Source: Taxawa tesnikishii (nom. ined.) (Eukaryota > Ascomycota > Dothideomycetes > Dothideales). From it: DNA of 64,000 nt. The stretch lies in NCBI GenBank assembly GCA_030247885.1, contig JAPDRO010000001.1:744001-808000 (forward strand). Direction: 5' to 3'. Both the position numbers and the translations under genes were made by a program. This document shows positions 4,318-61,046 of the stretch, in pieces; within the stretch, counting starts at the first letter, position 1; each line of letters begins with the position of its first letter. The notes under the pieces were generated by a model. It did not search any database and was not told the DNA's origin. It saw only the letters and a list, made by a program, of their open reading frames with translations.

Positions 4318-5040
4318 ATGTATGACGCCCGCAGCAAGAACTACGACGACTCTTGGCACCCTTCGTTCGCCTTGCATTTCGTCTCGCTCGCGCAAATCCA
4401 ACCCGGTGAGAATGTCCCAGATCTAGCACGTGGCATCGGGCTCGTGACTTTCGCCAACGCGCAAGCCACTGGTCCATCAGGAAGTGTCGTAGGTGTGGAG
4501 ATCAGCACCGGAATGCTCGAGCAAGCCCTGGCAGAGAAGTTCACCAGCAGGGTTACGAATGCTGAGCTCTACAGGCACGATGTTGCACGCCTCGACACCC
4601 ACATGCTGCTGTGAAGCAGTGGGTGAGATGTCTCGAACCCGGTGGCAGGCTGGTGGTCGATGTGGCTACGCCGCATAATCTGCCCATAGGCATGGCCATG
4701 GAACGAACCGGGAGACGGCTCGGCCTACCAACCGACTACAATCGAGACTGGGTCAGATCCGAAACCTGCTTGAGAGAGGTGCTTGAGGCCGCTGGACTCG
4801 TTGTGGGCAACATCGTCCCCGTAGAGCAGAAACGGAGAGGGGGTCGACTTTCTTGATATCGATGGTGCTGACAAGTATCTCGAAGGAGAGGTTGGTGATG
4901 AGGCAGTCAAGGCACTGGGTGTGGAGGATGTGAGGGAGAAGGCAAAGATAATGTTTCGACAAGAACGGGAGAAGGTGGCAGTGGATGGAAAGGCGAAAAG
5001 GGAAGACTGTGTATGCGTTGGCATCGGGCATCGAGAGTAA
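4318..5040 (+). pseudogene. Decayed SAM-dependent (UbiE/COQ5-type) methyltransferase
   Basis: Remnant of a class I methyltransferase. It begins MYDARSKNYDDSWHP, has a motif-I relic DLARGIGLVTF where the family has DLACGTG, then GSVVGVEISTGMLEQA (the acidic ribose-binding region) and HDVARLD. It then jumps straight to KQWVRCLEPGGRLVVDV. The roughly 30 residues that normally follow motif II (the catalytic-core strand with D-x-hydrophobic) are absent from the DNA and the frame changes there (about 4605). A second break lies in the G run 4839-4843; past it, the coding frame resumes with DIDGADKYLEGEVGDEAVKALG and ends at 5038. The G-run break could be a sequencing error, but the missing block and the altered motif I could not. 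No other COQ5-type relic is nearby; the true COQ5 is at 29-30 kb. Confidence 0.7.
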
Positions 5041-5958
5041 GACGGAGTGACTCTCACTTTGCTCGTTTGGAAAGCACCCTCACGTCCTCTCTCGGATTCG
5101 AAAAGTAAATCGACTACGTCAGGAGGAGGCATATAAAGAGTATCAGTACCGTACGGCCTCGGTACGAAGGGGTTCGTTTTTCCGTGAGTGCTAAACTAGA
5201 CTGCGAACCACTTGATGCCCAGCACTCATTATTCCTCGTGTTCGAAGGAGCATCGCTTCAGCAACCATGAAACAATCTACCCTGAAGCCATACACGGGGC
5301 TGACAGGTTCTGGGCTGGTCAAAGCGTGAATTCTCCCTCGGAAGCGCCAGTGGAGTCTTGGCAACGGAAACCGTGTTTCGAATATATCTGCGTCTCGGTG
5401 CTCCAAGATCGATACGCGAGGTGTTTAGTCCGTGTCCATCTTGATGCAGAAGCCTGGTCTTGCCTTGAGAAGCGGATATTTGTCTGCTTACAGCTAGGAT
5501 GAACATGAACCGGTCTGGCGCTACTCAACCTACTACGATCCATGCAAACACCGTTCACAGATCGCGAGAGCCATCATACAAATCCTTCTTTTGCACTTCG
5601 ACTAGAAATTGAAAGCACTTGCTTGGCATAGGTACTTCTCATCGAACGACATCTGTTACCCGTCTTGGCTGTGTTAGCCCGTCACTCGTGGCGTTGCTCC
5701 TTGTCTCGACTGTGAAGGTAGGCGATCCTCTCCTGAACGAACCTATAGCCATATAAATGTAGGTGTTGCCCGGTCTGTTCGATTCCTCATCCTCAAGCAT
5801 CACTCTACTTTCATCCTTGTTGTTTTTCTCCTTCGAGCCTTTTCTTGTGCTTGTCACTCCTTTCCGGATATTTCTATCCACCACACTCGTTCAACTCCGC
5901 ACCAAGAAAATCCTTCAGATCCTCTGGCAGGTTCTGTCAATCTTCAGTCTCATACACA
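5041..5958. other. Intergenic; upstream region of the AA9 gene
   Basis: No coding signal. The distal half is anonymous. The proximal 200 bp carries a TATA-like element (5752-5758) followed by a pyrimidine-rich leader (about 5775-5955) typical of highly expressed fungal genes. Confidence 0.45.
5752..5758 (+). promoter_or_regulatory. Probable TATA box of the AA9 gene
   Basis: TATAAAT lies about 200 bp before the AA9 ATG and is followed by a CT-rich leader. The position fits a core promoter with a long 5' UTR. It is inferred from sequence alone. Confidence 0.45.
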
Positions 5959-7032
5959 ATGAAGTTCCTCGTTTCCGCCCTGGCGCTAGCCGCCTCCGCC
6001 AACGCACACGCAATCATGCAGAAGCTCATGGTCAACGGCGTTGACCAAGGCTCCCTCGTCGGTATCAGAGCCCCATCCTCCAACAACCCTGTTCAGGATG
6101 TTTCCTCTACCGACCTCCTCTGTGGCGCCTCCGCCGGCACCTCCTCCAAGGTCATCACAGTCCCGGCCGGTGCGTCTGTCGGTGCCGCCTGGGCTCACGT
6201 CCTCGGCGGTCCCCAAGGTGCTGGTGACTCTGACAACCCGATCGCCTCCTCCCACAAGGGACCTACACAGGTCTACCTCGCCAAGGTCTCTGACGCCGCC
6301 TCCGCCTCGGCCTCCGGCCTTAAGTGGTTCAAGATCGCCTCTGACGGCGTTACCACTGACGGTGTCTGGGGTGTCGACCACATGATTGCCAACACCGATG
6401 CGTCCGGCTTCGGCTGGCAAAAGTTCACCATGCCCAGCTGCATTGCCCCGGGCCAGTACCTCATGCGCGTCGAGCTCCTTGCTCTGCACTCCGCCGGTAG
6501 CCAAGGCGGTGCCCAGTTTTACCAGTCTTGCGCTCAGATCCAGGTCACCGGCTCTGGCTCCTTCTCCCCTGCTGCCTCTAACCAGATTGCCCTTCCATCT
6601 GGCTACTCCGCCGCTGACCCAGGCATCCTCGTCAACATCTACGACAACAGCGGCAAGCCCACTGCTAACGGCAAGTACACCGCTCCTGGTCCAGCGGTCA
6701 TCAGCTGCGGTGCTGGCAGCGCTCCTGTCTCCTCCGCTGCCGCAGCTCCTGTTTCCTCGACCGCCCCCAAGCCCGCCACCTCGGTTGTCGCCAAGCCTGT
6801 CACCTCTGCTGCCGCGCCAGCCACCACCGCTGTCAACTCTAAGCCAACCACCCTGGTGACTATCGTCAAGACCACTACCGCGGCTGCCGCTCCTGCCCCT
6901 ACTCCTGCCACCGGTAGTGCCACTGCTGCCCGCTGGGGACAATGTGGCGGCAATGGCTGGACTGGACCCACCACTTGCGCCTCTGGATCCACCTGCCAGG
7001 TCCAGAACCCTTACTACTCTCAGTGCCTGTGA
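5959..7032 (+). CDS. AA9 lytic polysaccharide monooxygenase with C-terminal CBM1
   Basis: Secreted copper enzyme that oxidatively cleaves cellulose or related beta-glucans. Intronless, 357 aa. The chosen ATG starts a signal peptide ([16 protein letters not shown]) whose cleavage exposes His17 as the mature N-terminus. That is the first histidine-brace ligand, so this start is required; the frame is also open upstream. His99 (in SSHKGP) is the likely second ligand and Tyr189 (in [10 protein letters not shown]) the axial tyrosine. His177 and Gln187 match the conserved active-site pair. Cys residues at about 55, 161, 191 and 250 can form the usual disulfides. An Ala/Pro/Thr/Ser-rich linker (about 255-322) leads to a CBM1 (WGQCGG...YYSQCL) with four cysteines. 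No frame breaks. Confidence 0.95.
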
Positions 7033-7608: not shown

Positions 7609-10600
7609 ATGGCGCTTGATTCCTCTGATGGCTACGTGGCCGCTAGCAACTTGCAAGACGGAGCTGATGTGTCGCTGCCTATCTTCGACGTGCAGAGAGT
7701 CCAACTGCGCTTCGACATCTCTTCCGATTTCGTCGCTGCTCAGGTAGCGAACAATGTCCTGATACTGGCCCTTTCTACTGGCCGTATTCTCCGCTTCGAC
7801 CTTGATAACGCCGAAGACATCGACGGTCCGTAAACGCGACATTCATACATCCCCGACGGGCACAATGCTGATTGCGGCCAGACATTGACCTTCCCAAACG
7901 ACCCGCCGAGATTGGAATCATCAGGCGCCTTTTCCTAGATCCCTCTGCATCTCATCTGATCATCACCACTACACAGGGCGAGAACTTCTACCTGCACACT
8001 CAAAGTCGCCAACCGAAGGCTCTGGCGCGTTTGAGGGGGTACAGGTCGAGTGCGTAGCATGGAATCCCTCGCAACCTACAGCTTCCACACGAGAGATCCT
8101 CATAGGTGCGCTCGACGGAAGTGTTTGGGAGACATACATCGAGCCGAGTACAGAGTTCTACAAACGCGAGGAGAAATATGTGAAGAATGTCTACAATACC
8201 CAGGACGGGTCGGTGGTGGGGCTGTGGGCTGATGCAATTCCCGGAAAGCCAGACCAACGAAGGGTCATGATCGCCACACCGAGTAGGCTGCTGCATTTTG
8301 CTGGACGTAGCGGCCGACCCGGCCATGAAGGCAGCGGCTCAATATACACAAAGCTTTTTGAAAACGAAGCTCCAGTTGTGCATGAGATCTCGAGAGGGAC
8401 AAGCCAAGGTCCCTTCAGTCTCTCAATATCCCCGGAACCCTCTGAGACTGTACCGTCGGATTCGACCGAGGCAGAAAAGGCATTTGCGTGGCTCTGTTCC
8501 CAAGGCGTCTATCAAGGGAAGCTGTCCACAAACAACGATATCAGCAGCTTAGGGAACCGGGTCTTTGCAGGCTCGAAGCTCATGCCTCGGTCGAGCATAC
8601 CGCCTTCCAAAAACGCAATGGGGCGCAGCAGGCCGACGCAGGAGACTATCTCTTCGATTTGCCTGAGCCAGTTTCATATACTCCATCTTCTCGAAGGACG
8701 TATTGTGGCTATGAACCGCTTAGATGGCACCGTGGTTTATGATCAGGTCGTCCTTGAGCCCGGACAGGCGCCTCTAGGTTTATATGCAGATCAGAAGAAA
8801 AACACGTACTGGGTTTTCACGCAGCGGGAAATCTTTGAGATTGTTGTGACAGACGAGAGCCGAGACGTCTGGAAGATCATGCTCAAGAACCAGCAATTTG
8901 ACGCTGCGTCCCGTTATGCCAGGACCGCCGCTCAGAAGGATGCCGTAGCCACAGCATCTGGCGATTACCTCGTCACCCGAGGGCAATTCATGGAAGCTGC
9001 TACGATCTATGGAAGGAGCACCAAAGCTTTCGAAGAAGTCGCACTGGCTTTCATTGACAAGGGAGAGCAGGATTCACTGCGAAAGTACCTTTTGGTGAGA
9101 CTAGCGAACCTAAAGCGCTCATCAATAATGCAGAGGATGATGGTAGCTACTTGGCTCGTCGAGCTCTTCATGGCAAAGCTAAATCTGCTTGACGACACTC
9201 TCTCGGCTCAAGCAGAAGTCTCTGAAGGTACAACAGTGTCAAATACAAAGGACGAGCTACCCGCAATACGTCGCGAGTATCAAGAATTCGTCACCAAACA
9301 CAAATCAGATCTCGACTGCAAGACCGTCTACGAGATCATCAGCAGCCATGGCAGAGAAGAGGAACTTCTGTTCTTCGCAAACGTGGTAGACGACTATAGC
9401 TACGTTCTGTCATATTGGGTTCAGAGAGAACGCTGGCAGGAAGCAATGTCGGTGTTGAAGAAGCAGACGGATCCTGAGATTTTCTACAAATACAGCAGTG
9501 TGCTAATGGCGCATGTTGCGGTCGATCTAATCGAGGTGTTAATGAGGCAAGCAAACCTCGATACAAAGAAATTGATACCGGCACTACTCAACTACAATAG
9601 GACGGTCGACGTGCCTCTTAGCCAGGTATGTCATGAATGCCGACGCACAGAGAACGATCACTGACAGTGGAGACAGAACCAAGCTGTTCGTTACCTGCTA
9701 TTCTGCATCAACCAACACCATTCAACCGAGTCTGCTGTGCACAATACGCTGATTTCGATCTATGCGTCGCATCCCACCTCAGACGAATCCGCCCTGATGT
9801 CGTACCTCCAAACACAAAGCGCAGCTCACGAGCAGAACTACGATGCAGACTTCGCCCTCCGCCTGTGCATCGCACACAAGCGCGTTCAGTCGTGCGTACA
9901 CATCTACTGTACGATGAATCGGTACGCTTCCGCCGTTGACATGGCACTCAAGTATGGCGAGGTAGATCTGGCCGCCATCGTCGCCGACCGTCCGGACAAC
10001 GATCCCGCTCTACGAAAAAGCTATGGCTGAAGGTGGCTAAGAAGGTCATCGGTCAGAACAAGGGCATCAAATCCGCGATGGATTTCCTGAAGCGTTGCGA
10101 ACTACTCCGGATCGAGGATTTGATCCCTTTCTTTCCTGATTTCGTCGTCATTGATGACTTCAAAGAAGAAATTTGCGCCGCGCTGGAGGAGTACTCTCGG
10201 CAAATTGACACATTGAAGCGCGAGATGGACGAGAGTGCAAACACGGCGCAGCATATCAAGGATGATATCAAAGCGCTCGATCAACGATACGCCGTTGTGG
10301 AGCCTGGCGAGAGATGCTGGATATGCCGATTACCTCTGCTCATGCGGCAGTTCTTCGTCTTCCCATGTCAACATTCTTTCCATGCGGATTGCTTAGGGAA
10401 GATGGCCATGCAGATGGCTGGGACGGGCAAAGGAAAGAGGATCAAAGAACTGCAGACGGAGGTCGGTCGAGGTGTTATGGTCGGTAAGAAACGGGACAGA
10501 ATTGTCAGGGAATTGGATTCTCTCGTGGCCGGAGCTTGGTAAGTTGTCGGTATGTTTCTGCAAGCGTGTAGGAGTACTGACTCGTGCTATTAGTGTTTTG

Positions 10601-10678
10601 TGCAGTGAAGTGGCTGTCAAGCAGATCGATGCGCCCTTCGTTACTATGGCGGACAACAAGGCCGAATGGGCGCTGTGA
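7609..10678 (+). CDS. VPS18: Vacuolar sorting protein Vps18 (Pep3), HOPS/CORVET core subunit
   Basis: Core subunit of the HOPS and CORVET tethering complexes at endosomes and vacuoles. Exons: 7609-7825, 7882-9625, 9677-10538 and 10594-10678, about 969 aa. The N-terminal beta-propeller region has FVAAQVANNVLILALSTGRI and the phrase GENFYLHTQSRQPKAL. Then come the long alpha-solenoid (clathrin-repeat type), a short coiled coil (LKREMDESANTAQHIKDD) and a C-terminal RING: CWICRLPLL, CQHSFHADCL and CVLC. Intron 3 lies between CQHSFHADCL and CVLC, and its phase restores ACVLCSE. Two single-base breaks occur: in the G run 8035-8039 (LARLRG to VQVECVAW) and the A run 10015-10019 (DPALRK to LWLKVAKK). 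One added base in each restores the family sequence. Given similar breaks in neighbours, I treat them as probable consensus errors. The first donor, GTCCGT, is weak. Confidence 0.92.
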
Positions 10679-14940: not shown

Positions 14941-16427
14941 ATGAGCGCGCCGTCTGCTTGGACTCGCCATGGAACGATGAGGCCATGGCTGCGTTTGAGC
15001 CCATCGCGCCTGACTGCACGATGCTTCTCTTCGTCTGCACGCACGAAAGAGATCCGGGATATATCAGAGTTGCCGGATCGCATCTATCCTGCCTATAAAG
15101 GTGAACCGACTTGCGAGTTTGACTTGTTTCAATGGCTGACGGGTGCATGGAACAGAGGGATCATCACACCATGACCTCCTATGCCTGCAATGGCCTTCGC
15201 CGCTGCGCAACGTCTTGATCGTCAAGAAGAGCAATTCGCCGACCGTACATGAGGCTGCCATCGAATACGCAAACCACGTAACGGAAACGTACCCCGGAGT
15301 CTCTGTGATCTTCGAGCCGCATGTTGCTCAGGAGATTCATGAGAGTTTTTCATTCCCTATATACACTCGGACAGGACGAGGCGCATCTGTCACGAAGCTC
15401 AAGGACAAAGTCGATCTCGCGTCTACCCTCGGAGGAGATGGCACCATTCTGCATGCGAGCTCGCTGTTCGCCACCGCTCACAGAGTTCCGCCTGTACTTT
15501 CTTTCAGCATGGGTACGCTCGGGTTTCTTGGTGAATGGAAGTTCGGCGAGTACAAGCGCGCATTCCGGGAAGTGTACATGTCTGGCGCAACAGCAGGCCA
15601 TGGAAGTTCTCTTCTAGAACTGGAAGCAAAAGAGAAGGCTGCATCAAGGAACACAACTTCGTACGACAAGACGTCGCAGATGGGACCACCGCCTTCCTCG
15701 ACGGCTGCGCCTGTTGCGGATACCCCTACACAATCCCTTGCTGGCTGGTCGTCCGTCCGTGGCAAGTCAATGGGTCCCTCGCGCAGCTCTCGCGTGCTCC
15801 TGCGCAACCGACTCAAGGTAGGCATCTTCGCACCCGACGGCACACCAATTCCGCATCAAGATCCATCCATCCCACACACAACCTCGAATATCGACACAGC
15901 AAACGACATCTACGCCATGAACGAGGTTTTGCTGCATCGAGGTCGTGCGCCCCATCTCTCCATCATCTCCATCTACGTAGGCGGCCGTTTCCTGACCGAA
16001 GCCGTTGCAGACGGCATGCTCATCAGCACGCCCACTGGCTCAACGGCCTACTCGCTCAGTTCCGGCGGCAGCATCGTGCATCCGCTCGTCTCGAGCCTGC
16101 TGCTGACGCCCATCTGCCCGAGGAGTCTGAGTTTCAGGCCGTTAGTGCTGCCGGCAAACACGCCCATTACGCTGCGGTTGAGTGAGAAGAATCGCAGCCC
16201 AGAGGTGGAGGTCAGCGTTGATGGAGTGAGGCGGAGCCAAGGGTTAGAGAGAGGAATGGAAGTCAGAGTTGTGGGTGAGGAGATTCGAAGCGGTGATAGG
16301 CAGTGGGGAGGAGGCGTGCCAAGCGTGGTTAGAGCAGGCAGCGGGGGGAACGGAGGGCCAAGACCATTGGGTTGGTGGACTGAACGGATTGCTCAAGTTC
16401 AACTACCCGTTCGGCGAGGATGAATAG
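14941..16427 (+). CDS. POS5: Mitochondrial NADH kinase (NAD kinase family)
   Basis: Phosphorylates NADH/NAD to NADP(H) in mitochondria. Exon 1 (14941-15100) encodes an Arg/Ser-rich presequence (RPWLRLSPSRLTARCFSSSA) then IRDISELPDRIYPAYK. A 55-bp intron with a CTGAC branch site leads to exon 2 (15156-16427). Motifs: LGGDGTILHASSLF (the catalytic GGDGT), FSMGTLGFLGEW, DIYAMNEVLLHRG (conserved NE) and TPTGSTAYSLSSGGSIVHP. The start is the first in-frame ATG (14941); 14977 is an alternative. An extra G in the run 16343-16348 throws off the last residues. Past it, the sequence resumes as HWVGGLNGLLKFNYPFGEDE and stops at 16425-16427, matching the family C-terminus. I infer a consensus error. Expected length about 476 aa. 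Confidence 0.9.
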
Positions 16428-18524: not shown

Positions 18525-18580
18525 ATGGCAGCTCCAGCATCCGTCCGTGACTACGGTCTCGCGGCCCCCATGGCCCCAAC

Positions 18581-24782: not shown

Positions 24783-24790
24783 GTCGAGGA

Positions 24791-25196: not shown

Positions 25197-25230
<34 letters not shown>

Positions 25231-25953: not shown

Positions 25954-28556
25954 ATGACCATTATCTCGCTGCTGGTGGCCGCTCTGGCCGGTGTCGGCTC
26001 TGCTGCGCCTTGGTATAAACCCAAGTTCCCTGACTTTCCGCTGAAGAGCCATCCAGGATGGTCACAGCCAAGGTGAGCACAACAACTGCGTGACATTGTT
26101 GTCTTCCTCGAGACATGTTGACAGCTTTCAGCGTCTACGCGCCACCTCAGCCTGCACCGTCCTGGTACCGTCCCAACCATCACACCACAACCGCGCTCGG
26201 CTCCAGCGCTTTCGAGAGTGGTGTCGGTACGACAGTGTCCGTCACAAGGGCTACTGCCAGCACAACAGCGACAGCGATTCCCACTGGGAGCTCTGCCAGC
26301 GGCCCCTGTGCCAGCGTATCCCAGCTGGTGGCGTCTTACACTAGCGCTTCGCCTTCTGCTGCTACGCCTACTGTACCTGCAGATATTGCGTATGAGTGCT
26401 TGAACTCTATTCCTTTCAATCAAACCGCCGCCGCGGCGCTCCTGGAGTCCATTCGCCCTTACCTCAACTGGCAGACTACCATCTCCTACCTCAAGTCTCC
26501 GCCAGCTGAGTACGCAGAGAAGATTCAGCCGCCGTATGACTTCTGGGCCACTTACAACGCCATTGCAGCGAACGTGTCCGCTGGTGCCTACGCAAGCGAA
26601 TATGATTTCGGCTGGGCTCTCTACGAAGCGACACAGGTCACTCACGACGGACATTTCGCCTTCGTACCGGACAGCGTTGGCCTGATCTTCACCTTTGGCC
26701 GCACCACACCTATTGTTTCGGTCTCGGTCGACGGTGAGAACGTCCCAGAGGTTTACGTTTATGCCGACATACTTACGGCGTCTTTTGGTAACGCTACTTT
26801 CACTCCGTCGCCGATCGTGGAGATTGATGGCCAGAACGCCACCGAATACCTGCTCCACTGGTCTCAGTATGGCTCACTTCAGGACAGGGATGCGCTCTGG
26901 AATAACCTCATGTACATCCCCGCGCAGGTGTCACTGGGCTCATCTGGAACGGGCACTGGTACATTCAGCGGAAGCGGCCGCGGTAGATTCGTGTACCCAG
27001 GCCCGTCGACAACCCTGACCTTCGCCAACGGCACGACAGTGACCAACCAGAACTACGCACGCGTCCTTGTGGATTTTGAAAACATTACGAGCGGCGCAGA
27101 CGTTTATCAGACTTACTTTGCCGTGCCTGAACCGGACTCTGCCCTGGATCTTGCCACCTCCACTTCGACATCAAGCACTACCGCTGCGCCGTAAGTCTTG
27201 GCTCCCCGGTGTGTCTCGTACCAAAAACAGTAATCTAACAGACAGTAGTACGAGCACCAGCAATGTCACTAGTAGCACCGTATCCGTTACCAGGTCGACC
27301 CCGCTCCTGGCTACCCTTCGCCAGTCGTCCGTCACTCCAACAACCTCAACAGCGGCTACTTCCTCGAGGGCGCGGGTTACGAAGATGTTGCTGTCCTTGT
27401 GGTGCCGTCTTTCGTTGGTCTTGGCTCTGCAGAGGTCGAGTTTCAGAACGTCAACAGCGAGTTCATCGCGGCTGCAAAAGCTGCCAACAAGACCAAGCTG
27501 ATCATCGACGTTTCCGCCAACGGTGGAGGTACTATCTTGCAGGGATACGATCTCTTCAAGCAGCTTTTCCCTTCAATCCTGCCTTATGGCGCTACCCGTC
27601 TCCGCGCTCACGAGGCCCTCAATGTCCTCGGCGAGGAATATTCGGCCATCTCAGCCAACTATCCTCGCAGCTTGAACGAAAACGACACAATCCAGAACAT
27701 CGAGTCCGCAAGCTTCAACTATCGCACCGATGCGAACATCTCCTACGAGCCTTTCACGTCCTGGCCGGAGAAGTTCGGTCCACATGAGTTCGGCCCGTTC
27801 AATGACACCTTCACCTCCATCATCCGGTGGAACCTGTCCGACGTCCTGACGCCAGACAACTCTGGGGGCATCTACGTCTCCGGCTACCTCAACCGGTCCA
27901 ACGTGACCGTGCAGCCGTTCGCACGAGACGACATCATTATTGTCTACGACGGCTACTGCGCCAGTACCTGCACCATCTTCTCCGAGCTGATGCGTCAGCA
28001 AGCTGGCATCAAGACGATCGCGCTTGGAGGCCGTCCAAACAAGGACATCATCCAAGCCGTAGGTGGAGTCAAGGGCACCAACGATTACCCGTACGACTAC
28101 ATCCTCGGCTCGATCGTCACGGCCTTCCAGTTCGCGAACGAGACGCACAGACTGGAACTCAACAGCACTGCTCTGGGCACTTACAACAATCTGCCCCTAT
28201 ACCGTGCTGCCTCTGACCCTGTCGTCAACTCGCGCGATGGCATCAGGCAAGGCGACGAGAGCGAGACGCCGCTCCAGTTCGTGTACGAGCCTGCGGACTG
28301 CAGAATCTACTACACCCCTGCCATGGTCGTCGACGAGACGGCTGTGTGGATGACGGTGGCTGATACCACGTGGGGTGGCAGCAATGCTTGTGTTGCCGGC
28401 AGCAATGACCTTTACAACAAGAAGAGAAGCGTGGCCGCTGCTGCGCAGGAGATGCACCGTGTCAGGAGAGACGTTAACGTGGCGGAGATCTGGGGCAGTT
28501 TGAGTGCCGAGGCGGGTAGTGTGACGCTTGGTGGTGATGCCATTATGCTGCCGTGA
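25954..28556 (+). CDS. Secreted S41-family (tail-specific-like) serine peptidase
   Basis: Extracellular protein of the fungal peptidase S41 family. Exons: 25954-26072, 26132-27190 and about 27246-28556, roughly 829 aa. A signal peptide (MTIISLLVAALAGVGSAA) is followed by a Pro/Ser/Thr stretch, a conserved N-terminal domain (CLNSIPFNQTAAAALLESI...YDFGWALYEATQVTHDGHF), a Ser/Thr linker and the S41 domain (VLVVPSF, IDVSANGGG, ILQGYDLFKQLFP). VYDGYCASTCTIFSELM probably carries the nucleophilic Ser. Several N-x-S/T sequons are present. The frame breaks in the C run 27299-27302; one added C gives RSTPAPGYPSPVVRHSNN and a continuous protein. An acceptor at 27230 instead of 27245 would keep the same frame. 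The lysine partner and substrate are not identified. Confidence 0.82.
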
Positions 28557-30084: not shown

Positions 30085-30099
30085 GTTGTTGTTGTTGTT

Positions 30100-30135
<36 letters not shown>

Positions 30136-30552: not shown

Positions 30553-32162
30553 ATGCCATGCGAGATGAAGATGGAGATGAAGATGGCGACGGCGACCAAG
30601 AGCCTCTCTCGTTCCCCGCTAAGGATTGTACCATCCGCATCCGCATCCACAGCCCGACTTGGTCGGACCAGGTGGCGGCCGTCGGCATACCAAGTACGCT
30701 GCAGCTCCGTCTCACAAAAGCCCGGATCGGATCAGTACGTGCGTGTTGCCTCCAGTCCTCGTAGAACGTAACTCAAAAAACGTCTCAGTGTGCACTTCCC
30801 CGGCGCCGTCAACAGCAAGTTCACCACCAAGCTCGCCTTTACGCGACCACAGGAGAAAAATGCTATGCCGACGTACCGCATACTGGACCAGGACGGTGTC
30901 ATCGTCGACAAAGACCGCGAACCGCCCGACATAAGCGATGAGGAAGTCATCAAGATGTACAAGGATATGGTGTCCGGTACCGTTACCATCTTGTTCATGG
31001 CGACCTCGATCCATGTTCTCGTTCTGACACCACTGCAGTGAGCATAATGGACCTGATCATGTTCGACGCCCAAAGACAAGGACGGATAAGTTTCTACATG
31101 GTACATCTCATCCATCTTCCTCTACCATCGTCATCTTCCTACACGCCAGTTACTCACTACCCGGTCCCAGGTCTCCGCCGGCGAGGAAGGCATAGCCGTG
31201 GGCTCGGCCTCCGCGCTCAAATCCAACGACCCGATATTTGCACAGTACCGAGAAACCGGCATCTTCGCCTACCGCGGATTTACCCCTCGTGATTTCGTGG
31301 CGCAACTCTTCGCACACCGAGGAGACCCCGGCCTCGGACGCAACATGCCGGTTCACTACGGTTCTTCGGTCTTGCACATCCATACCATCAGCTCTCCCTC
31401 GCCACCCAGATCCCACACGCTGCGGGTGCCGCGTATGCTGTGAAGTTGCAAAATGCGAGCGACCCCCTGGAGCCGGCAAGATGCGTAGCGTGCTACTTTG
31501 GCGAAGGCGCAGCAAGTGAGGGCGACTTCCACGCCGCTTTGAACATTGCTGCAACGCGTGCATGTCCCGTCGTCTTCATCTGCCGCAACAACGGCTACGC
31601 CATCTCGACGCCCACACTTGAGCAATACCGGGGCGATGGAATCGCGTCGCGAGGCGTCGGGTACGGAATCGACACGATTCGCGTAGACGGAAACGACGTT
31701 CTAGCTGTGCGCGAAGTAACGCGCAGAGCCCGCGACATGTGTCTGCAGAACGGCGGCAAACCGATGCTGATCGAAGCGATGAGCTACCGTGTCTCGCACC
31801 ACAGTACCAGCGATGATAGTTTCGCGTACCGGGCGCGGGTAGAGGTCGAGGACTGGAAACGCCGGGACAACCCGATCATTCGCTTGCGGAAGTGGTTGGA
31901 GGGCAAGGGGATCTGGGACGAACAGAAGGAGAAAGAGACGCGGAGTTCGTTACGAAAGGAGATTTTGGATGCGTTCAAGGCCGCCGAGAAGGAGAAGAGA
32001 CCCGCGTTGAGAAACATGATTGAGGGTGTTTACGAGCAAATGACAGAGGAGCAGGTGGAACAGATGGAGAAGTTGAGGCGCATCATTGAGAAGTATCCGG
32101 ATGAGTATGATGTTGGTGAGTTTGAGGGCGGTTTGGAGAGCCTGAAGGCTGTACAGCGCTGA
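30553..32162 (+). CDS. Branched-chain 2-oxoacid dehydrogenase E1 alpha subunit
   Basis: Thiamine-diphosphate subunit of the mitochondrial branched-chain keto-acid dehydrogenase, which catabolises Leu, Ile and Val skeletons. Exons: 30553-30734, 30789-30976, 31039-31100 and 31171-32162, about 474 aa. A basic, Ser-rich presequence is followed by HFPGAVNSKFTTKL, PTYRILDQDGVIVDKD, SIMDLIMFDAQRQGRISFYM, VSAGEEGIAVGSA and RNMPVHYGS. The ThDP motif is YFGEGAASEGDFHAALN, then FICRNNGYAIST and YRVSHHSTSDDS (the phosphorylation-loop region). The frame breaks in the short C run 31396-31398: HTISSP should continue LATQIPHAAGAAYAVK, which is read one frame on. One added C restores it. The exact ATG is uncertain among several in-frame Mets (30553-30583). 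Confidence 0.9.
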
Positions 32163-36969: not shown

Positions 36970-39457
36970 ATGAGTTCTGGCCAGAGCTACCCTTCGCCGA
37001 CACAAGCGCACACTTCCAGCACAGCCGGGCCCTTCTACAACCAGCGTAATGCCGAGCGGACACCTCCACCATCGCAGCAACACGCGCCGCGGCCAGATGA
37101 ACGTATCGATGACATGCAGCTACGTGCAGACCTATCCAGGTCACTTGCGCCTGGTTTAGGAGATTCGACTCATCCCCCACCTCATCAGCATGAGCAGCGA
37201 ACACCGCAACACCAGCCTCACCATGCCCCAGGACAGCAGGATGCTCATGCGCGCTTTATGCAGACGGTGCTACACGAACAGAACCACGCGAGCCCGCCAG
37301 ACCATCACGCACAAGATTCCGCGAACAGGGCAAGAGACAAGAGGACGAAGGTGTCGAGAGCTTGCGACGAGTGCAGAAGGAAGAAGGCGCGTTCGTGTGA
37401 AACTGTTGTCGCGCGTGTTTTGGAGGCTGACACACGCTCCACAGATTCGCTGCGACGCGATAAATGAGACCGGTCAAGAGCCTTGTACAAACTGCAAGCG
37501 CACCGGCGCTATATGCGCCTTTAGCAGACAGCCCATGAAACGCGGACCAAGCAAGGGCTATATCAAAGAGCTCGCGGATCGCCTGCATACGCTGGAAAAC
37601 CAAATTCAACCTCACCAAGTGCAGCCACTTCAGGCTGAAATGCAGTACATCCAGCAGAGATTGGCCGAAGAAGGCGTGCATCAAGGCCCTAACATGCAAG
37701 GGTACGCTTCTCCTCCAGCGCAAGCTGGTCGCAAGCGGACGCACTCCGTGTCAGAGAACTCGCATGAGCAGCCCTCCAGGCCCTCATATTCAAACGAATA
37801 CTCGGGCAATACATCAAGATCTACGCCCTTTGAACCACTTCCCGCACCGCAAAACATGCAGCCACCGCCTCGTACTCCTCAACCACAGAGTGATGGTCGG
37901 CCTGCGTTACCACCACCACCTCCGCAGCTACCGCCACCATCCAACGTTGGCTTGCAACCCTTCTTTAAGTACGGAGGTGATACCGGTCGAAGGGAAAGCA
38001 TCAGCATCCCTTATGAATCCGACGCAATTGCTGGCTCGAGCGTTGTTGACTGGGATGAAGCTGTAATTGACGAGTACGGGGGCACCTGCCACTTTCACAC
38101 TAAGCAAATATGCTAACCACTATAGGTATTACCGTCTGATACACCAGACATTTCCGCTACTTCCTCACTCGAAGCACAGGTTAAGGTTACGCTTGGCTGA
38201 CTGTCCCTTGTCTCTTCGACAAGCGTTTTTGACTGCCTTGGAGGGACTGATGCGAACGTTCCCGACTTCTTCTCTACGAGCCAGCCAGACATACTCGCCG
38301 GCCATGAAGCGAGCGGCCGAGCTCTTGGCAAGCTATCCATTCGAAAACCCAGCTACCCATACTACATGCACCAATTTAGTATATCTTCAGACGTTGCTAT
38401 TGATGGCACTTGAGTCTGATAATCACGGTCCCGCGACAATTAGGGGTCAAGCTGGACCTTCCAGAGCCGAGTGGCTTGGTCGAGCCGCTGGCGTTGCGGG
38501 ACAACTGGAGATCAATCTTGTCAGACCTCGTGAACGTTTCGTTACCGAGGGGATCCCGACTCAGAAGAGAGGCTAGCCAGGCGTGTTTGGTGGGTACTCT
38601 TCATTCTGGATCGATGGCATGCCTCCAGCACCGCAGACCTCTTGAAACTTCCCGAAAATAGTGTCGTGCTCCTTCCAGAGGATCAGATTCTGCTTGGTGA
38701 ATCTACCTATCACCTCGCTCGTCTTTCATTCATTATCGGCCATCTTGCAGCCATACTCACGACAACCAAAACACCCGAGACCAACATCATGGCGCCATCG
38801 AACCCGGCCTCGCAGCTCCTCGGCCTTACTCTCGCCGGTGAGATTGATCGCTTTCGGGAATCCGTTGAGAGCGTCTGGGGCTCTCTTAACCTCGTCCACC
38901 TCTCCTACCATCACTGTCACCTCCTAATCAAGCGTCTGAACCCGACGACCGAACCAACCGAACTGATTGGTCACGCGCTGAAGGTGGCCACGGTGCTCAA
39001 CCAGCGTCAAACACCAATCACGCCGCTGAACCACCATTTCGCCGCTCTGTCCGCCATGACGCTGTGCGAGCTCGTTGACGTCGACAAGACACGCACCGAC
39101 GCCATTCGCGGCATTGAGCAAATCTCCGAAGCCCTCGGACTCGGCCGCGGCATCTCGGGCCACGAAGAGAGCACAGGCTGGGACTCTGCTATCCGTGAAC
39201 TTGTGCTAAAGAAGAAGGCGAGATTGCAAGCCGTTGCAGGTAGTGGTACGGATGGAATGAGGCCGGTGGTGGCCGGGCTGCAGCATCTGGCGGATGCGGC
39301 GGCCAAGGAGGGCGCGCCGCCTAGCGCAGCAGAAGGTAATGTTGCGGCCACGGCGGTGGGTAATGGTTCGGACAAGCAGACTAAGTTCGATCCGACGATG
39401 TTGACGAGGTATGGGTACTTGACTGCACTGGGCCAAGGCATGTTTCACGCGAGGTAG
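36970..39457 (+). CDS. Zn2Cys6 transcription factor, Rgt1-like
   Basis: Fungal zinc-cluster regulator. Exons 36970-37386, 37445-38073 and 38126-39457, about 792 aa. The Gln/His/Pro-rich N-terminus (139 aa) ends in SRACDECRRKK. Exon 2 continues IRCDA...PCTNCKRTGAICAF, giving C-x2-C-x6-C-x10-C-x2-C-x6-C, then MKRGPSKGYIKELADRLHTLE (linker and coiled coil). The middle homology region starts YYRLIHQTFPLLP and includes RRVWWVLFILDRWHASST and LLGESTYHLARLS. The RGPSKGYI linker is characteristic of Rgt1-type glucose-response factors; that assignment is inference. Intron 1 (58 bp) appears to have a GC donor. Intron 2 has a textbook TGCTAAC branch site. The frame breaks in the G run 38549-38552; one added G gives GDPDSEERLARRVWWVL. 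Confidence 0.88.
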
Positions 39458-41868: not shown

Positions 41869-43292
41869 ATGTTCTCATCCCGTCTCGTAGATCACCAGAG
41901 CTGGTCAGGTAGCTTGACTTACATCGCAGCCCTGGCGCAGCTTGTCCGCAGTATCGAGGACGGGCTAGGTGTACCTGTGGCCAATGACACCATTCAAGAT
42001 GTTGGCCAGCAGTGCTTGCACATCATCAGAGATAGGCCGGATGAAGTGATTCGTCTTGCACAAAAGAAGTTGCATACCTGGCCTTATGCGGAAGTACCGA
42101 ACTGTTGGAGGCGTCTTTACGAGGAAGCTAGTCTCTGGAAGGCTATTCAACTGATCCAACACCAGCTCGACTCCCACATCCACGGTCAGTCTGCCCGAAA
42201 GCGGAAGAGAAATGGCACCGTCGCCGATGCACGGCATGATCATACGGAGCCAGAGGATTGGGTTGCTGACGCAGCAAGGCCATTGGACATGGCGATCATC
42301 CTCACAGGATCTCCTGGGCGCAAAGACCTCATCATGAAAGTGTTCGATTCGTTACAACGTTACCTAGTAACCATAGACGATATCGACCAGCATTTCCTAA
42401 AGACTGGTCAGAAGAGCATATGCCCTTCACAGTGTCTCATACCTTCACCGCGACAGCGAGACCACCCAGTATGATCCAATTCCAGACACATCTGGATCTG
42501 AAGGGCACACCGTTGTTCATGGAACATGTCATCTCGACTTGGCCCGCATTACTAGGATCAGATCGCAATTGGCGCAATCCACAATATCTATTGAAATCTA
42601 CGCTCGGTGGACGTCGGCTAGTCCCAATCGAACTTGGACGCAGCTACACCGACGAGGGCTGGGGACAGAAGATAATGACGTTCGCCGAATACATGCGCAA
42701 CCATCTCCTGCAGCCGGACCCGGAGCAGACGGGTTATCTTGCACAGCATGACCTTTTCGCGCAAATACCGAGTCTAATGGCAGACACCATGGCGCCGGAT
42801 TACTGCTACACAGAGCCTCCGCGGAACCGGGAAAGGAACAAGACTCAACCTATTCTCGACGAGCCTTTGCGCAATGCTTGGTTTGGGCCCATGAGCACCA
42901 TCAGTCCCTTGCACACAGATCCTTATCACAACATTTTCTGCCAGGTCGTAGGTTCCAAGTACATCCGCTTGTATGCACCGTCCGAGACGCCCAAACTCTA
43001 TCCAAGAAGCATCGACGAGGCTGGCGTCAACATGGAGAACACCTCAAATGTGGACATTGAACTGGCGATGAAGATATTCGACGGAGATCTGTATTACCCT
43101 TTGAAGCCGCCCAAGATTGAAGACGCGGAGAAGAAAAGAGCAGAGTTCGATGCGCGGTTCCCCCTTTTCAGGAAAGCAAAGTTTGTCGAGGGCATTCTTC
43201 ATTCTGGTGACTGCCTCTACATCCCAGCCGGGTGGTGGCACTACATGGAAAGTCTGCAAACGAGCTTCAGCGTAAGCTTCTGGTGGAATTGA
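41869..43292 (+). CDS. JmjC-domain dioxygenase, JMJD5/KDM8-like
   Basis: Fe(II)/2-oxoglutarate oxygenase with a JmjC domain, probably a protein hydroxylase or demethylase of the JMJD5 branch. Single exon, about 474 aa, starting at the first ATG (MFSSRLVDHQSW). An alpha-helical N-terminal half (WRRLYEEASLWKAIQLI) matches the helical region of that family. The catalytic half has TPLFMEHVISTWPAL and RLVPIELGRSYTDEGWGQKIMTF, then PLHTDPYHNIFCQVVGSKYIRLY (HxD iron ligands plus the Lys for 2-oxoglutarate) and GDCLYIPAGWWHY (distal His). The frame breaks in the A run 42399-42401; one added A yields HFLKDWSEEHMPFTVSHTF. A basic ARKRKRNG patch near residue 110 could be a nuclear signal. Confidence 0.87.
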
Positions 43293-45858: not shown

Positions 45859-47669
45859 TCACAGACTTTCGTATGTACAGTAGTATACAATTTGTGACAT
45901 GTGTTCTTTGGTAAGGATCCGTATTAAGGACCCGGAGGACCAGGGGCTTCCCCTATTATCGTAACGTGGTGGCGCAAATGGGTTGTATGGACCCGTCGCT
46001 GGAGATGCTTGCATAATGGGCGGAAGAGGAAGAGACGATCCTTGAGAAAATGTTGGCAATGGCGGCCCAGCAAGTCTAGAGCCGGGTGAGGGAAGTAAGG
46101 GCGCGCTCGACTGGTTAACTGCGAGATGCGGCGGCGGTTGTTGCACTTGGGACATTCCCTGTGGAATGAACGGCGGAGGCGGCGGAGGCGGAACATACGG
46201 TTGCTGGTGGCCTTGAGGAGGAGGGTGGGGAGCATTACCAGTCATGGATGCTTGTGGCATTGGAAAGCTGCCTGTTCTCCTCCGGACGTTTCTCCCTAAG
46301 TCAGGACTCTGCGCCTCACGCTCAGAAGATGTACCGTATCCAGAAGCCGCACTTGACGACTGCGCAGTGGGAGCGCCACCAGCAGCTCTGCGGGTCCGCG
46401 GTGATTGCGGTCTGGGAAGGTGACGCTCACCACCGGATGTTTGCGTTACCACAGCCAGTAGGTAATCCCTTTCTCTCTTGTAGAACTCCATGTCCTCACT
46501 GAGCTCCTTCACCTGCTGCTCAAGCTTCGAAATCGTGGCAGAAGCCTCTATCTCCTTCTTTTTCGCCTCTCTCGAAACCTTGCGCTCGCGCCCGCATTGC
46601 GCCGCCTCTTTTCGTCCGCCACACGAGAAGCAGCCTGCACATCGACAGGAAGTTGGACAGTGCCGGAAGTCGTCTCCAAAGTCATCATCTGATACGTGCT
46701 AGCCCCTCCCGGAGACGATATAGGAATCCCGACAAAGCTTTGACTCGGGTTACGGTCCGGATGTCCGGGGAGTGCTGATGCTGACCGGTATTGGTCCGCC
46801 GGCCCAGGCACTCCACTTGCTGGATCTGACGTGACCGCAAACCGAGCGGGAGCAGGAGGAGGCAGTGAAGTGAGCTGAGTGGCAGGCGAAGTCTGGTCGG
46901 CTTGGCTGTAGGAGGAATACGAAGTGCTTGGACTTGCGCTCATAGACGGTCCTCTTGCCAGGGTAGTGGCTCCTTGACTGGTTCTTCTGGGGAGAGGAGC
47001 CGATGTAGGCGGAAAGCCGTAACTCGGTCGCGTACCTGCAGGCGGTGTAGGCAGAGGAGGCACTCCTGACGTACCTGGCTCTATGGTATAAGCGTGTGAA
47101 CGCGGCGAAGAAGGCGGAAACGGCATCTGTTGTGCGTTTATGGTCGCGCTCGATGGGTTTAGTTGATTCAGGCTTGCAGCTCGGTGTAGCAGTGGGGAGC
47201 GCGGGGTGAGTATGCGTCTTCCTTGACGGTCCGTTGACTCGTTGTACGGGGTACTTTGAGGTGCGCGGGAAGAGTGTTGCCCGTACGGCACGCTAGTTGC
47301 TATTGGTGGAAGGGGTCGGCCAGCCGTCTGTGGTGATTCGAGCTCCCCCACTTTCCTCCTCCTAGGTAGTTGGCCTGTTGTTTCTGTAGGTTGCGCAGGG
47401 TTGAGAATGGCCGGTAGCGCTCCGAGTCGCGACAGGCTGGGAGAGAAGCTACCGCCCGTCATGTTCGGAGCACGCGGTAGGGGTGGTAACTCGAAGCCCC
47501 GGCCCGAAGGCGGTCCAAACCTTTGCGTCAAAGGTGAAACTGCTGCTGAGGGTGGAGCGGAAGACGTGGACGCATACTGCTGTTCGTGAGAAGCGCCCAG
47601 CGCATTTCTCGAGCCACCGTCATTGCCAGAGCTTGCAGGAGGGCCTTGCGGAGAAGGCCGCTGTGACAT
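45859..47669 (-). CDS. bZIP transcription factor (N-terminus unresolved)
   Basis: Nuclear basic-leucine-zipper regulator. The coding frame runs from at least 47669 (first in-frame ATG, MSQRPSPQGPPAS) and is open up to 47963 without an ATG, so an upstream exon is likely. The first 370 residues are Pro/Ser-rich and disordered. The basic region is KRRRNAGASARFRERRK, with the invariant N and R, followed by a heptad region ISKLEQQVKELSEDMEFYKRERDYLLAVV. The C-terminal tail is Pro/Gln-rich with a PPPPPPPF run. The frame breaks inside the basic region in the T run 46559-46563 (plus strand). One added base gives RRKKKEIEASATISKLE and joins basic region to zipper. The exact C-terminus is also uncertain. 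No finer family assignment is made. Confidence 0.83.
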
Positions 47670-50867: not shown

Positions 50868-50890
50868 CCTCCTCCTCCTCCTCCTCCTCC
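50868..50890. repeat. (CTC)n tract
   Basis: Seven to eight CTC units followed by C- and T-runs, in gene-free DNA. Confidence 0.8.
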
Positions 50891-55405: not shown

Positions 55406-58253
55406 TCACTCTTGCGGATCAGTCAAACTGGCGAGCTTTTCTTGAGCTTGAACGATGTTGTCGCGCTCCTCCTTCAACTCGGAGCGGCGAACTTCCCGGC
55501 GTGGATCCTCGGCAAGCAGCCGTGTACAGTGATCTCGGGCTTGGAGGCCAGTTAGCATGCTGTTTGTTGATCGCGAACGGGGTTCTTCTTGCACTTACCG
55601 TCGTCTCCCTCCACCTCCAGACCGCCCTTCAAGTATGCGGCCAGTCCATCGCGACAACCGCCGAAAAGCTCGACCAACACACCCTGAACAACATGGTCGA
55701 CAAAGCGTGAAGAAGCCACCACATAGTAGCCACACACCTTGCCCATGACATCGACCTCGGCTTGGTACAGGTCGGGGCCGAGCTCTTTACGAATCTCGTT
55801 ACGCACCTTGCTGTTCTCGAGCTTGTTCTCTCGGTCACTGCCTTCAGTCTCCTTGCCAGTCTTCGCTTCAATCTTGTCAAGATGTTCGTTCGCACGTCTC
55901 TCGAATCGTTCATCCATAAGTCTGGCAAACTCTTTGGTACAGCTTTCCGTGATCGCATCTTCGCTGATGGCCCATGGTCTCTTGAGTTTCGATTCCAAGT
56001 CGAAGAGACGACGGCTGGCTTTTCTTTGCTCTTCGATGCAGAGTGACAAGAACGCGTCTACCAGTCTCTGGACTCTTCCGTAGAACTCGGTGCCTACCCA
56101 TTGTCCGCATGCTCCCTCCAAGAGCTCTTGCAATTTAGCGTTGACAAGCCCCGCCATTCTGTTCAAGAACGTCTCCATGGCCTTGTCCCATTGTTGTACA
56201 CTCTGAAGACGCAGCTGGTCGATTGCTCTGGTGGAGGTTTCGTTACGTACCGAGAGCGACGAGCCTCGCTGTAACACGGCACGCAGTTCACCCAATGTCC
56301 ATTTTCCTGGGATTTTGAACAGAGTTCTGACAGCGGACCCGGACAAGCTGTTCTGGAAGCGGGCAGAGGTGATGGAAGATGGCGTTTGGACATCGGATTC
56401 GAGTTTGGGACGTTTTGAACTCGGAGTTGGACAAGGTGTTGATTCGGTGCCCTCATCTCCAGACGACAGTTGAATGACCTCACTGACAGTTCGCTTGCCA
56501 GGCTTCGAAGATGGTGTGGAGGTGGTAGGCTTGCTTGGAGCTGGTTTGCTTCGAGTCGGCTTGCTTGAGACCGGCTTGGCTGGAGTCGCTGGCGTGTTCA
56601 TGGCCAGTCTAGGCCTGAGTCGTCCGATTTCAGATCGAAAGTTCTCAATCAGCTTACGGATATCGTCATGAAAGTCTCCGCCATCTTCACCGTCCACGTT
56701 CTGCTTCACCAATGTGGTATAGTGATTCAGTGCATCCAGAATTTGACCCTGCGCGTTCTCCGGAGGATCCGGGTATTGCTCAAGCTCATTTCCGAGCGTG
56801 AGCAGTCGCTCGTTCAGCAGTGAAAATATTCCGGGAGGCTCTCGTGGATCTTGAATGCCAGTTGCTGGGAGAGGTATGTTCTTAACTTTTCCGTTCCGCA
56901 GCGCTCCGCATAGCCGACAAAAGAGGGCGTGGACCAAGGCGCTTGTCTGGCAAAGTATTCAACCTCCTCAACACGAGCTTCCCTGTAGGTGATTCCATCA
57001 TCGAGCTGTTTCTGGGAAGGCTGCTTCGTGACGAAGTAGCCGTGTCCCACTCTGTACCTTTCTCCTCTCAAGATGCCCAGGATGTCTTTCCAGAGTTTGT
57101 CAGAGTCGCCCTCTGGCAGCCTATCGGGCTTGGTTAGAACGGCTGCAGAGAGCGTCAGTGCCTCAGCAAGCATCGTGTATCCTGGGGTAACACACCGATA
57201 CAACGATCCATAGCACCTGGGATATCGTGAAGCATACTCGAGGTGATAGAGTTTGCAATGTCGCCTTCCATTGCGCAGGCCAAGAGGATGAGTGAGGCTT
57301 TGTCTCTGAGATAATTCTCGACGAGTGTCCTCACAAGGGTGACCAGATACCGCTTGGTTCCGTCCTCCGTCTGTGAGATGACTCCGGGCAGATCAACAAA
57401 AGCTAAGTTGGCGAGGTCGGGGCTCTCGATCTACTCGTGTCAGCTTCAAGCGGACGTCTTCGCTCAAATGACACTTACATCTATGCGAACGATATTCGGA
57501 GAAAACTCCACTCTGTGTGACAGCTCTTCAACTGGGACCGATGCACACACATACTTGAGGGGATCGTCCCCGGGGTTGAGAATCGCAAGCTGTGCACGAC
57601 GCAAGATATCTTCCAGATCGGTCGGGTTTTCAGTGGTCGCAATGACGGTGGTTTGGGGAACATGTCCTTCTGCCACGGGCCGTATGGCAGGAGATTGCCA
57701 TGGGCATCTTGAAAGATGTTGTCGTAGAAGCTGTATTTCTTAACGAGACTGACCCTGCATTTCCAGGGTCCTACGCTTGACGACGTTGTGATTTGCAGCG
57801 GACACTGCGCTCAGATTAGCTCATGCGTTGGAAGGTGCGCGTCGTTGGCCGTCTTACTCTCGTACACGTGCCGCTGCTACGCGGTACCTTGATGTCACAA
57901 AGAGCTTCGATGACGCTGCTCTTTCCAGCATTTTGGTCGCCGACGATGACGACCTGAGGAAGCTCGTGCTGAATGTCCTCGGTGACTAGTTCGCGAACCT
58001 GCTCGATGGCCTGCATGAGTTCTTTCACACAATGACCGAGCGACACCATGGCATCATCCACAGTCATGGCGTCTGATTGGGGAATCTGGACGGTGGGTTG
58101 GTGCTCGTCTTGCATGATTGTGTCTGGTGAAGCCGCTGCGTTCGGGCCTGAGTCTCGCGTGGGCAACACAGCGTTGAAGTGGCAGGAAGGAGGTAGAGTG
58201 GTCGCTGTCTCCTCAGGTGGCTCTTGCTTAACCCCGCTTCTCGTCCTCACCAT
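55406..58253 (-). CDS. Dynamin-like large GTPase (Mx/DRP type) with SUMO-motif-bearing insert
   Basis: Dynamin-superfamily GTPase, about 878 aa. Minus-strand exons: 58253-57858, 57803-57479, 57430-57196, 57142-55599 and 55539-55406. G1 is GDQNAGKSSVIEAL, G2 lies in SGTCTR+CPLQIT, G3 is DLPGV and G4 is TKPD. The stalk follows (IFSLLNERLLTLGNELEQYPDPPENAQ), then a Lys/Pro/Ser insert with VIQLSSGDE and SSKRPKLES, more stalk and a GED (LLAEDPRREVRRSELKEE). No PH or membrane helix is seen. Three single-base breaks: near 57777-57778, at 57673-57674 (TGGCAG, expected PYGPWAEGHV) and in the G run 56833-56835 (SLPGIFSLLNE). With one base added at each, all exon phases agree. Either consensus errors or an ageing gene; the conserved motifs favour the former. 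Confidence 0.85.
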
Positions 58254-58830: not shown

Positions 58831-58918
58831 GAGTGAAGCGAGGTGTAGTGAAGTGCATTGGAATGAAGCGAGACGGAGTGAAGTGGAGTGAAGTGGAGTG
58901 AAGTGAGGTAAGGTGAGG
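58831..58918. repeat. Degenerate (AGTGAAGTGG)n repeat
   Basis: Irregular purine-rich copies of a GAAGTGGAGT-like 10-mer, best conserved at 58876-58900. Confidence 0.7.
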
Positions 58919-59312
58919 TCGGACAAAAGGGGAAGAACACATCCGATAGGGAGGCGGAGGCGGCAGCTACAGCAAGCGAAGCTGCAAAACCCGGTGAGCA
59001 TCTGCAGAAAGGCACCGCTCTCCTTCTCTCTTCTTCTCTTTTCTTCTCTCTTCTGCAGTTACGCACCCGCTTCACGCCTGAATGGAATGTTGCAAGACAA
59101 GCGTGCCGTCCGAGAAGCCGCTATAGCCCAGCCCCGTCCTCTGTCCGACAAAACTCCATATCTAAAGCTTTGGTGCAGAGTAGATACGAAGCATCTCAAT
59201 GGGTGTAGAGTAAACACGAAGCGCTGACTCGAGACCGTCTCACACCTTTTGACGCCAGGACGGCGGAGCGCGGACCCTTGCATCCAACTAGCGCAACCCT
59301 CGTGTCCTTGTA

Positions 59313-59349
59313 CACTTGTACAGTACACCTGTACAGTACACTTGTACAG
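59313..59349. repeat. 13-bp tandem repeat carrying the palindrome TGTACA
   Basis: Nearly three copies of CACTTGTACAGTA (the middle copy reads CACCTG), each with a TGTACA palindrome, about 205-240 bp before the GMPPA-like ATG. Confidence 0.75.
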
Positions 59350-59553
59350 CGTCTGCGGAACTGGAAGCTGTCCTCATTGCTTTCCCTGTAAACGTTCACC
59401 GTCGGCTGCATACGAGCACAACACCACAACACCCCTGACCCCCTGACCCCCGCCCCGTTCTCTTCTTCCTCTCAATTCCATATCCGATACCTCTTCCACA
59501 CGAAAGAGCCAGGAATCGAAAGTAAAGGAAAGGAAAAAACAAACAAAAACACA

Positions 59554-61046
59554 ATGTCTCTGCAGGTTCCCTCGCGCACAAAGGGCGGTAATGCGCCCAA
59601 CACAAAAGCCGTCATTCTAGTCGGAGGTGAGCATCAAACTTGACTCTCCCCTTGCACCGCTTTCTTCAACACCGCTGACGCGCCCAACGGCCCTTCAAGA
59701 GGAACCCGCTTCAGGCCCCTCTCCCTCGACGTTCCCAAGCCGCTCTTCACCGTCGCCGGCAAGAGCATCATCGAGCACTGCTTCGACGCCGTCGTCAAGG
59801 TGCCCTCGATCCGCGAAGTCTTCATCGTCGGCTACTACGATGACTCCGTCTTCCGGGACCTCATCCGCGACAGCCACAAGACCTACCCGCAGCTGCGCAT
59901 CACCTACATGAAGGAGTACACGGCCATGGGCACCGCCGGCGGCCTGTACCATTTCCGCGACCAGATCCTGAAGGGCCAGCCGCAGCGCTTCTTCGTGCTG
60001 AACGCCGACGTGTGCTGCAGTTTTCCTTTGGGTGAGATGCTGCGCTTGATGGAAGAGAAGGACGCAGACGCCATCATCCTGGGCACCAGGGTCAGCAACG
60101 AGGCTGCGTCAAACTTCGGTTGCATCGTCAGCGACTCGCACACCAAGCGCGTGCTGCACTACGTCGAAAAGCCGGAGAGCCACATCAGCAACCTGATCAA
60201 CTGCGGCGTCTACCTCTTCACCACAGAGTGCATCTTCCCGTCCATCAAGTCGGCCATGAAGCGGCGCGCCGACCGACCGAGACTGGTCAGCTACCCCTCG
60301 TCCGAGGCGCTCGACTCCCAGGACTTTTCCTCAACACCGCCGACGGCGACGACGACGACAGCGAGCGCAAGAACGAGGTCATCCGTCTCGAGCAGGACAT
60401 CCTCTCGGATCTCGCCGACACCAGCAAGTTCTTCGTGCTCGAGACCAAGGACTTCTGGCGCCAGATCAAGACCGCCGGTTCCGCCGTGCCTGCCAACGCC
60501 CTGTACCTCATGAAGGCCTTCCAACAACAGAGCGAAGCCCTCGCCACTCCCTCCGCCACGATCCTCCCACCCGTCTACATTCACCCCTCCGCCACCGTCG
60601 ACCCGACCGCCAAGCTGGGTCCGAACGTGAGCGTGGGACCCGGCGCACACATCGGCGCCGGTGCCCGTGTGAAGGAGTCCATCGTGCTCGAGGACGCCGA
60701 GATCAAGCACGACGCCTGCGTGCTGTATTCCATCATCGGCTGGGGTTCGCGCGTCGGTGCGTGGGCGAGGGTCGAGGGCACACCGACGCCCGTGCGCGAA
60801 CACAGCACTAGCATCGTCAAGAACGGAGTCAAGGTCCAGAGCATCACCATCCTGGGCAAGGAGTGTGCGGTTGGCGATGAGGTGCGCGTGCAGAACTGCG
60901 TCTGCTTGCCGTTCAAGGAACTGAAGAGGGTGAGTCTTGCATAACCCCGCCCTTGCTTGCCTTTTCGGGAGTTTTGCGACGCTGGAGATATACCGTGCGG
61001 CGACTGACAAGACACGTAGGACGTTGCCAACGAGGTTATCATGTAG
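59554..61046 (+). CDS. Mannose-1-phosphate guanylyltransferase, GMPPA-like
   Basis: Nucleotidyltransferase-fold protein of GDP-mannose synthesis; the alpha (regulatory-type) branch is inferred. Exons 59554-59626, about 59690-60929 and 61020-61046, about 446 aa. Exon 1 ends KAVILVGG and exon 2 begins PSRGTRFRPLSLDVPKPLF, together the pyrophosphorylase signature. Then come YMKEYTAMGTAGGLYHF, FFVLNADVCC and HYVEKPESHISNLINCGVYLF. C-terminal left-handed beta-helix hexapeptides follow (IHPSATVDPTAKLGPNVSVGPGAHIGAGA), and the tail is DVANEVIM. The expected acceptor of intron 1 reads AACG (59686-59689), not AACAG, so one A seems missing. A second break lies at 60321-60322; one added G gives DSQGLFLNTADGDDDD. 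The exon 2 insert with IRLEQDILSDLADTSKFFVLE is typical of GMPPA. Confidence 0.88.

Follow-up and report, generated by a model that had tools for sequence, protein, structure and literature searches.

The loss of bases from short homopolymers is an already published defect of long-read-only fungal assemblies. In a nanopore-only study of Drechmeria coniospora, roughly one-fifth of the genes were wrong after long-read polishing, according to the sections of that report drawn on here (PMC7500977). The corresponding sections of the Homopolish paper describe one isolate in which deletion errors rose with polishing (PMC8011154), and those of a study of nanopore assemblies of filamentous ascomycetes describe insertions and deletions (indels) that fall with depth (PMC9453082). 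The stretch of DNA considered here, a window of 64,000 nucleotides comprising bases 744001-808000 of contig C1 (JAPDRO010000001.1), belongs to the assembly of the ascomycete Taxawa tesnikishii (nom. ined.), which holds 29.37 Mb in 34 contigs; its gene content is fungal, as judged by Pfam domain matches. A first-pass annotation of this window had listed 13 single-base breaks of the reading frame in otherwise conserved genes and had read them as a deletion-biased error of the consensus, and a check of all 13 positions found the listed runs in place. The assembly sequence alone makes it very likely, though it does not prove the cause, that the consensus is in error at these breaks.

The reading frames were followed with a gene model that uses coding statistics, allows GT-AG introns with lengths of 44-160 bases and charges a penalty for every one-base shift of the frame, whether forward or backward, the penalty being set at F=-7 (lax), F=-9 (middle) or F=-12 (strictest). 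The most precisely placed breaks are those for which a homologous protein could be aligned in two frames. The VPS18 gene (7609..10678, + strand), delimited by the gene model and by homology to the solved Vps18 8dit_C, carries two frame changes on the + strand, one at a run of five G (8035..8039) and one at a run of five A (10015..10019). At the first of these the upstream frame corresponds to residues 75-128 of 8dit_C and the downstream frame to the protein from residue 116 onward; at the second, which the model calls at 10008 at all three settings, the frames match residues 657-771 and then 767-944, and the 200 residues past the break match 8dit_C with an expect value (E) of 1e-77. The third site lies in the gene for BCKDH E1-alpha (31395..31401, + strand), at a run of three C, where the two frames match human E1-alpha at residues 88-164 and then 163-399, and Pfam E1_dh at positions 27-102 and then 102-298. 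Since the frames adjoin in the homologues at all three sites, with no gap between them, an intron cannot be accommodated, and the breaks that had been listed at 8035-8039, 10015-10019 and 31396-31398 are thereby placed within a few bases.

These sites also bear on the idea that most entries of the list are simply ordinary introns misread by eye. GT-AG introns do explain several of the positions in the model (e.g., 42407-42456 and 33985-34133), and intron-sized junctions are common in the family searches described below (36 of 63), but the idea is refuted for the two VPS18 sites and for BCKDH. Here the model itself replaced the break with an intron, 8050-8105 for VPS18 8035 and 31433-31488 for BCKDH, and these substitutes delete conserved residues that align to 8dit_C and to human E1-alpha, respectively. 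The expectation that automated predictors would invent introns was thus borne out by the present gene model. Moreover, the breaks in the S41 gene, at dynamin 56833 and in the GMPPA-like gene are still called at F=-12 with introns allowed, and misread introns are a highly improbable explanation for the list as a whole.

The model was applied to 31 stretches with a total of 303,684 bases, namely the window, 20 stretches of 10 kb and 10 loci of the chaperonin family, in which the gene span adds up to 159.7 kb. The breaks called numbered 56 at F=-7, 29 at F=-9 and 15 at F=-12, and the great majority were deletion-like (48/56, 28/29 and 15/15, respectively). As a control, 150 kb of Escherichia coli K-12 was used with the program retrained (gene span 128 kb, the fungal gene span being about 1.2 times as large), which gave 17, 6 and 2 calls at the same settings, the six at F=-9 being divided into four deletion-like and two insertion-like. 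When random single-base losses or gains were put into intact-looking fungal genes (60 each), 36 of the deletions and 35 of the insertions were recovered; both directions were therefore found about equally well, i.e., the direction bias is not produced by the detector. Subtracting the E. coli background from the 29 calls and dividing by a sensitivity of 60% leads to a rough rate of about one break per 4-5 kb of gene span. Of the 29 calls, four fall in the window and none in the chaperonin-family loci; the other 25 are distributed over the 10-kb stretches, 14 of the 20 holding at least one. The window is not special, and the breaks are spread over the genome regardless of gene function.

Breaks in conserved genes were also found outside the window, by inspecting neighbouring pairs of matches to the families PF00118, PF00012, PF00069 and PF00133, which were picked by eye from the match tables. 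Matches that overlapped were excluded, namely an HSP70 pair on C23 and two cases of tRNA-synt_1, on C1 and C12. Among 63 junctions, five changed frame with too little space for an intron, 21 were in frame and one was of another kind, the remainder being the intron-sized junctions mentioned above. The five frame changes, located at family-match junctions in a CCT chaperonin subunit (C1, around 528261), an HSP70 (C3, around 494622) and three kinases (on contigs C7, C14 and C4), imply a change in length of at most 17 bases, and all five shift in the same direction. Each of their intervals contains a run of four or sits at most 6 bases from one (that of the C14 kinase, 40 bases long, has two), whereas a random exon window touches a run of four by chance in 11% of cases if it is 13 bases long and in 15% if it is 19 bases long. 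A further family, Sugar_tr, gave no neighbouring pairs among the best 9 of 323 candidates scored, and was of little use for counting.

That the breaks might be true lesions, in pseudogenes or in a decaying lineage, has in its favor that the frame changes are genuinely present in the sequence, and that real slippage mutations likewise favour runs. The pattern of the breaks, however, argues strongly against it. The losses outnumber the gains by 28 to 1 at F=-9, the similarity to known proteins carries on at both sides of the breaks, and the aligned VPS18 pieces are free of internal stops, apart from those downstream of a frame change or inside a predicted intron. The breaks are not confined to dispensable or duplicated genes either: a chaperonin search of the assembly returned nine gene-sized groups and one partial match, the expected count being eight CCT subunits plus HSP60, so that no second copy is visible that could stand in for the broken CCT gene. 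Lesions would furthermore imply that 19 of the 64 genes (those scoring at least 30 in the window and the 20 stretches) are broken, which would be too many for a living fungus, and they are accordingly judged very unlikely.

The breaks also favor homopolymers. A run of at least five was found inside the placement interval of 10 of the 28 deletion-like calls at F=-9, as compared to a mean of 2.9 and a maximum of 8 for exon intervals of equal lengths drawn at random 1000 times. With weighting by position, runs of at least four take up 3.96 of the 28 calls, versus 1.65 under uniform placement. A difference in run length was seen in a repeat of 2,134 bases, whose two copies (L005:5670-7802 and L018:6866-8999) are separated by 103 substitutions and a single indel, A4 in one copy versus A5 in the other.

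It might be argued that the breaks are real in the DNA and are corrected at the level of expression, by programmed ribosomal frameshifting or by transcriptional slippage, and indeed other systems are known in which slippage occurs on homopolymers and frameshifted genes are rescued (e.g., PMC5009743 and PMC8254509, in the portions used here). Such a correction would have to act on short runs of differing bases across many unrelated genes. At the homology-placed sites the runs are only 3-5 long and consist of A, C or G, and the eight sites placed in this way differ in base and in run length, with no common motif visible by eye (no formal search was made); the repeat pair, too, differs in run length. 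Recoding is therefore even less probable than genuine lesions, and it is very improbable that the recorded run lengths are true and that hundreds to thousands of one-base gaps, including those in essential chaperonin genes, are put right in the messages by slippage or recoding on short runs of various bases.

Several observations weigh against a consensus error, or at least against its simplest form. In four of the 28 placement intervals the longest run does not exceed three, which means that homopolymers do not account for every break, and the run at the well-placed BCKDH break is itself merely three long. At F=-9 the window has four calls rather than 13, and likewise four at F=-12, while the confirmed CCT break was called only at F=-7 and was missed at F=-9. 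The E. coli sequence is an imperfect control, its model having been trained with shuffled sequence as extra noncoding material, and it gave 26 false introns at F=-9. In a pair of duplicates on contig C2, 1,500 bases long and located at 91001 and 542677, the copies are identical with no indel, against about 0.7 expected at the rough rate, a result that was graded as neutral. Finally, the spectrum of run lengths had been considered as proof. Compared to a second-order Markov expectation, G/C runs of six are scarce both in genes (3 versus 18.0) and in intergenic DNA (4 versus 16.8), but E. coli too shows a drop of G/C runs at length six, which makes the spectrum by itself weak, suggestive at most, and it was set aside. 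A/T runs of six are rarer here as compared to E. coli alone (34 in 264 kb versus 112 in 150 kb).

Even so, a loss of bases by the consensus accounts for the direction of the breaks, their spread, the excess of runs, the conserved protein on both flanks and the breaks in essential genes, and the A4/A5 difference in the repeat is compatible with it; the deletion-biased consensus error proposed in the first-pass annotation is upheld in this respect. Single bases would have been dropped throughout the genome, for the most part within or next to homopolymers that are recorded as about 3-5 bases long, while the genes would be intact in the living fungus. The source would then be an assembly made from long reads only, most likely by nanopore sequencing, and insufficiently polished with short reads, the platform being suggested by contiguity and the type of error only.

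The remaining breaks of the list fared unequally. Apart from the three confirmed within a few bases, three of the 13 are supported with an approximate position, five come from inspection or from the lax threshold only, and two (POS5 16343 and dynamin 57777) did not find support. At F=-7 the model makes 14 calls in the window, and for 10 of the 13 positions on the list there is a call at most 140 bases away. Four calls made only at this setting lie off the list, at 18574, 30648 and 43250 on the + strand and at 46913 on the - strand.

The three supported breaks are all called at the strictest setting. In the S41/CPAF-like gene, the zone of frame change (27165..27302, + strand) has domains on both sides, and the model calls the break at all three settings, placing it at 27165 at F=-9 and F=-12; alternatively, a canonical intron at 27191-27260 would be followed by a break near the listed 27299, and a first-pass model placed it at 27281. 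The frame change is supported, with an approximate position. The same holds for the dynamin-like gene on the - strand, where the frame change listed at 56833 falls inside Dynamin_M (56817..56958). Positions 1-81 of the domain match in one overlapping frame and 80-133 in a second (E 0.17 for the second piece), and the break is called at all three settings, at the strictest one at 56826. In the GMPPA-like gene, the frame change listed at 60321 is bracketed by the NTP_transferase and GMPPA alignments (60249..60375, + strand) and called at 60328 at all three settings, its exact position again being approximate.

The two further breaks claimed in the dynamin-like gene lie in a stretch (57484..57810, - strand) that was read in three-frame translation. 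The one at 57777 was discarded, since an open frame runs past the site, through 57484-57810, whereas that at 57673 comes from a reading of the translations and is not called, the model preferring an intron. The copper-fist gene (33990..34133, - strand) is comparable, in that the break listed at 34006 is claimed from inspection of the three-frame translation, while the model makes no call and prefers the competing intron 33985-34133; its pieces gave no Pfam match above the cut-off. Three other claimed breaks are called at F=-7 only. In the Zn2Cys6/Fungal_trans gene (38544..38552, + strand; listed at 38549) the Fungal_trans match downstream of the site is weak (E 8e-4, below the cut-off), and the pieces upstream had no Pfam match. 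In the JmjC/Cupin_8 gene (42399..42420, + strand; listed at 42399) the model at F=-9 prefers the intron 42407-42456. In the bZIP gene, where three-frame translation would put the frame change between the basic region and the zipper (46559..46589, - strand; listed at 46559), positions 7-26 of bZIP_2 match in one frame (E 1.1) and coiled-coil-like matches occur in the other. The extra base claimed for POS5, among six consecutive G close to where the gene ends (16343..16348, + strand), is also called at F=-7 only and is without support from homology: the alignment to yeast Pos5 stops at query residue 380, around 16279 and thus short of the run, and no related structure was found for the alternative frame. 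The AA9 gene, which had been listed as free of breaks alongside STT3, KRS1, COQ5, SMP-30 and CDD1, drew no call at either of the two stricter settings, F=-9 and F=-12.

Some features of other contigs were noted in passing. The repeat with the A4/A5 difference is common to contigs C2 and C15, with an identity of 95.1% between its copies, and transitions make up 95 of its 103 substitutions. In 84 of these transitions G is replaced by A, or C by T, in going from L005 to L018, a pattern that resembles repeat-induced point mutation. On contig C2, kinase-domain matches also occur in a number of near-duplicate sets (e.g., 413883, 810272 and 878577; 446460 and 965342; 636786 and 1091433; 91522 and 543198), and some of the matches contain in-frame stops; the contig may be accessory or rich in repeats, or may carry a false duplication. 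A search of the assembly for 5.8S rRNA gave no match at E 0.001 or better among the best 39 of 883 candidates scored, and ribosomal DNA may be missing from it.

The phenomenon is an ordinary artefact, real in the file and genome-wide, and of low biological interest, but it has consequences for the use of the data. Gene sets derived from this assembly would contain splits, truncations or false introns in perhaps a third of the genes, and claims of gene loss or of pseudogenes are best held until it has been polished; a warning on the assembly is merited. Compared to the published cases, in so far as the portions of those papers used here describe them, the likeness to Drechmeria coniospora is twofold: there, too, single-base indels in homopolymers shift the frame of conserved genes in a sizeable share of the gene set, and improbably short invented introns can mask the errors from automated checks. 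In one respect the two differ, and this again speaks against the present interpretation, since polishing in that study led to more insertions than deletions, the opposite of the deletion-like bias seen here (PMC7500977). The Homopolish work, unlike the present analysis, dealt mainly with bacterial benchmarks for which the truth was known, but it similarly reported that homopolymer indels remaining after polishing shift reading frames (PMC8011154). The nanopore assemblies of filamentous ascomycetes also resemble the present one, with indels in and outside homopolymers that affect single-copy genes (PMC9453082).

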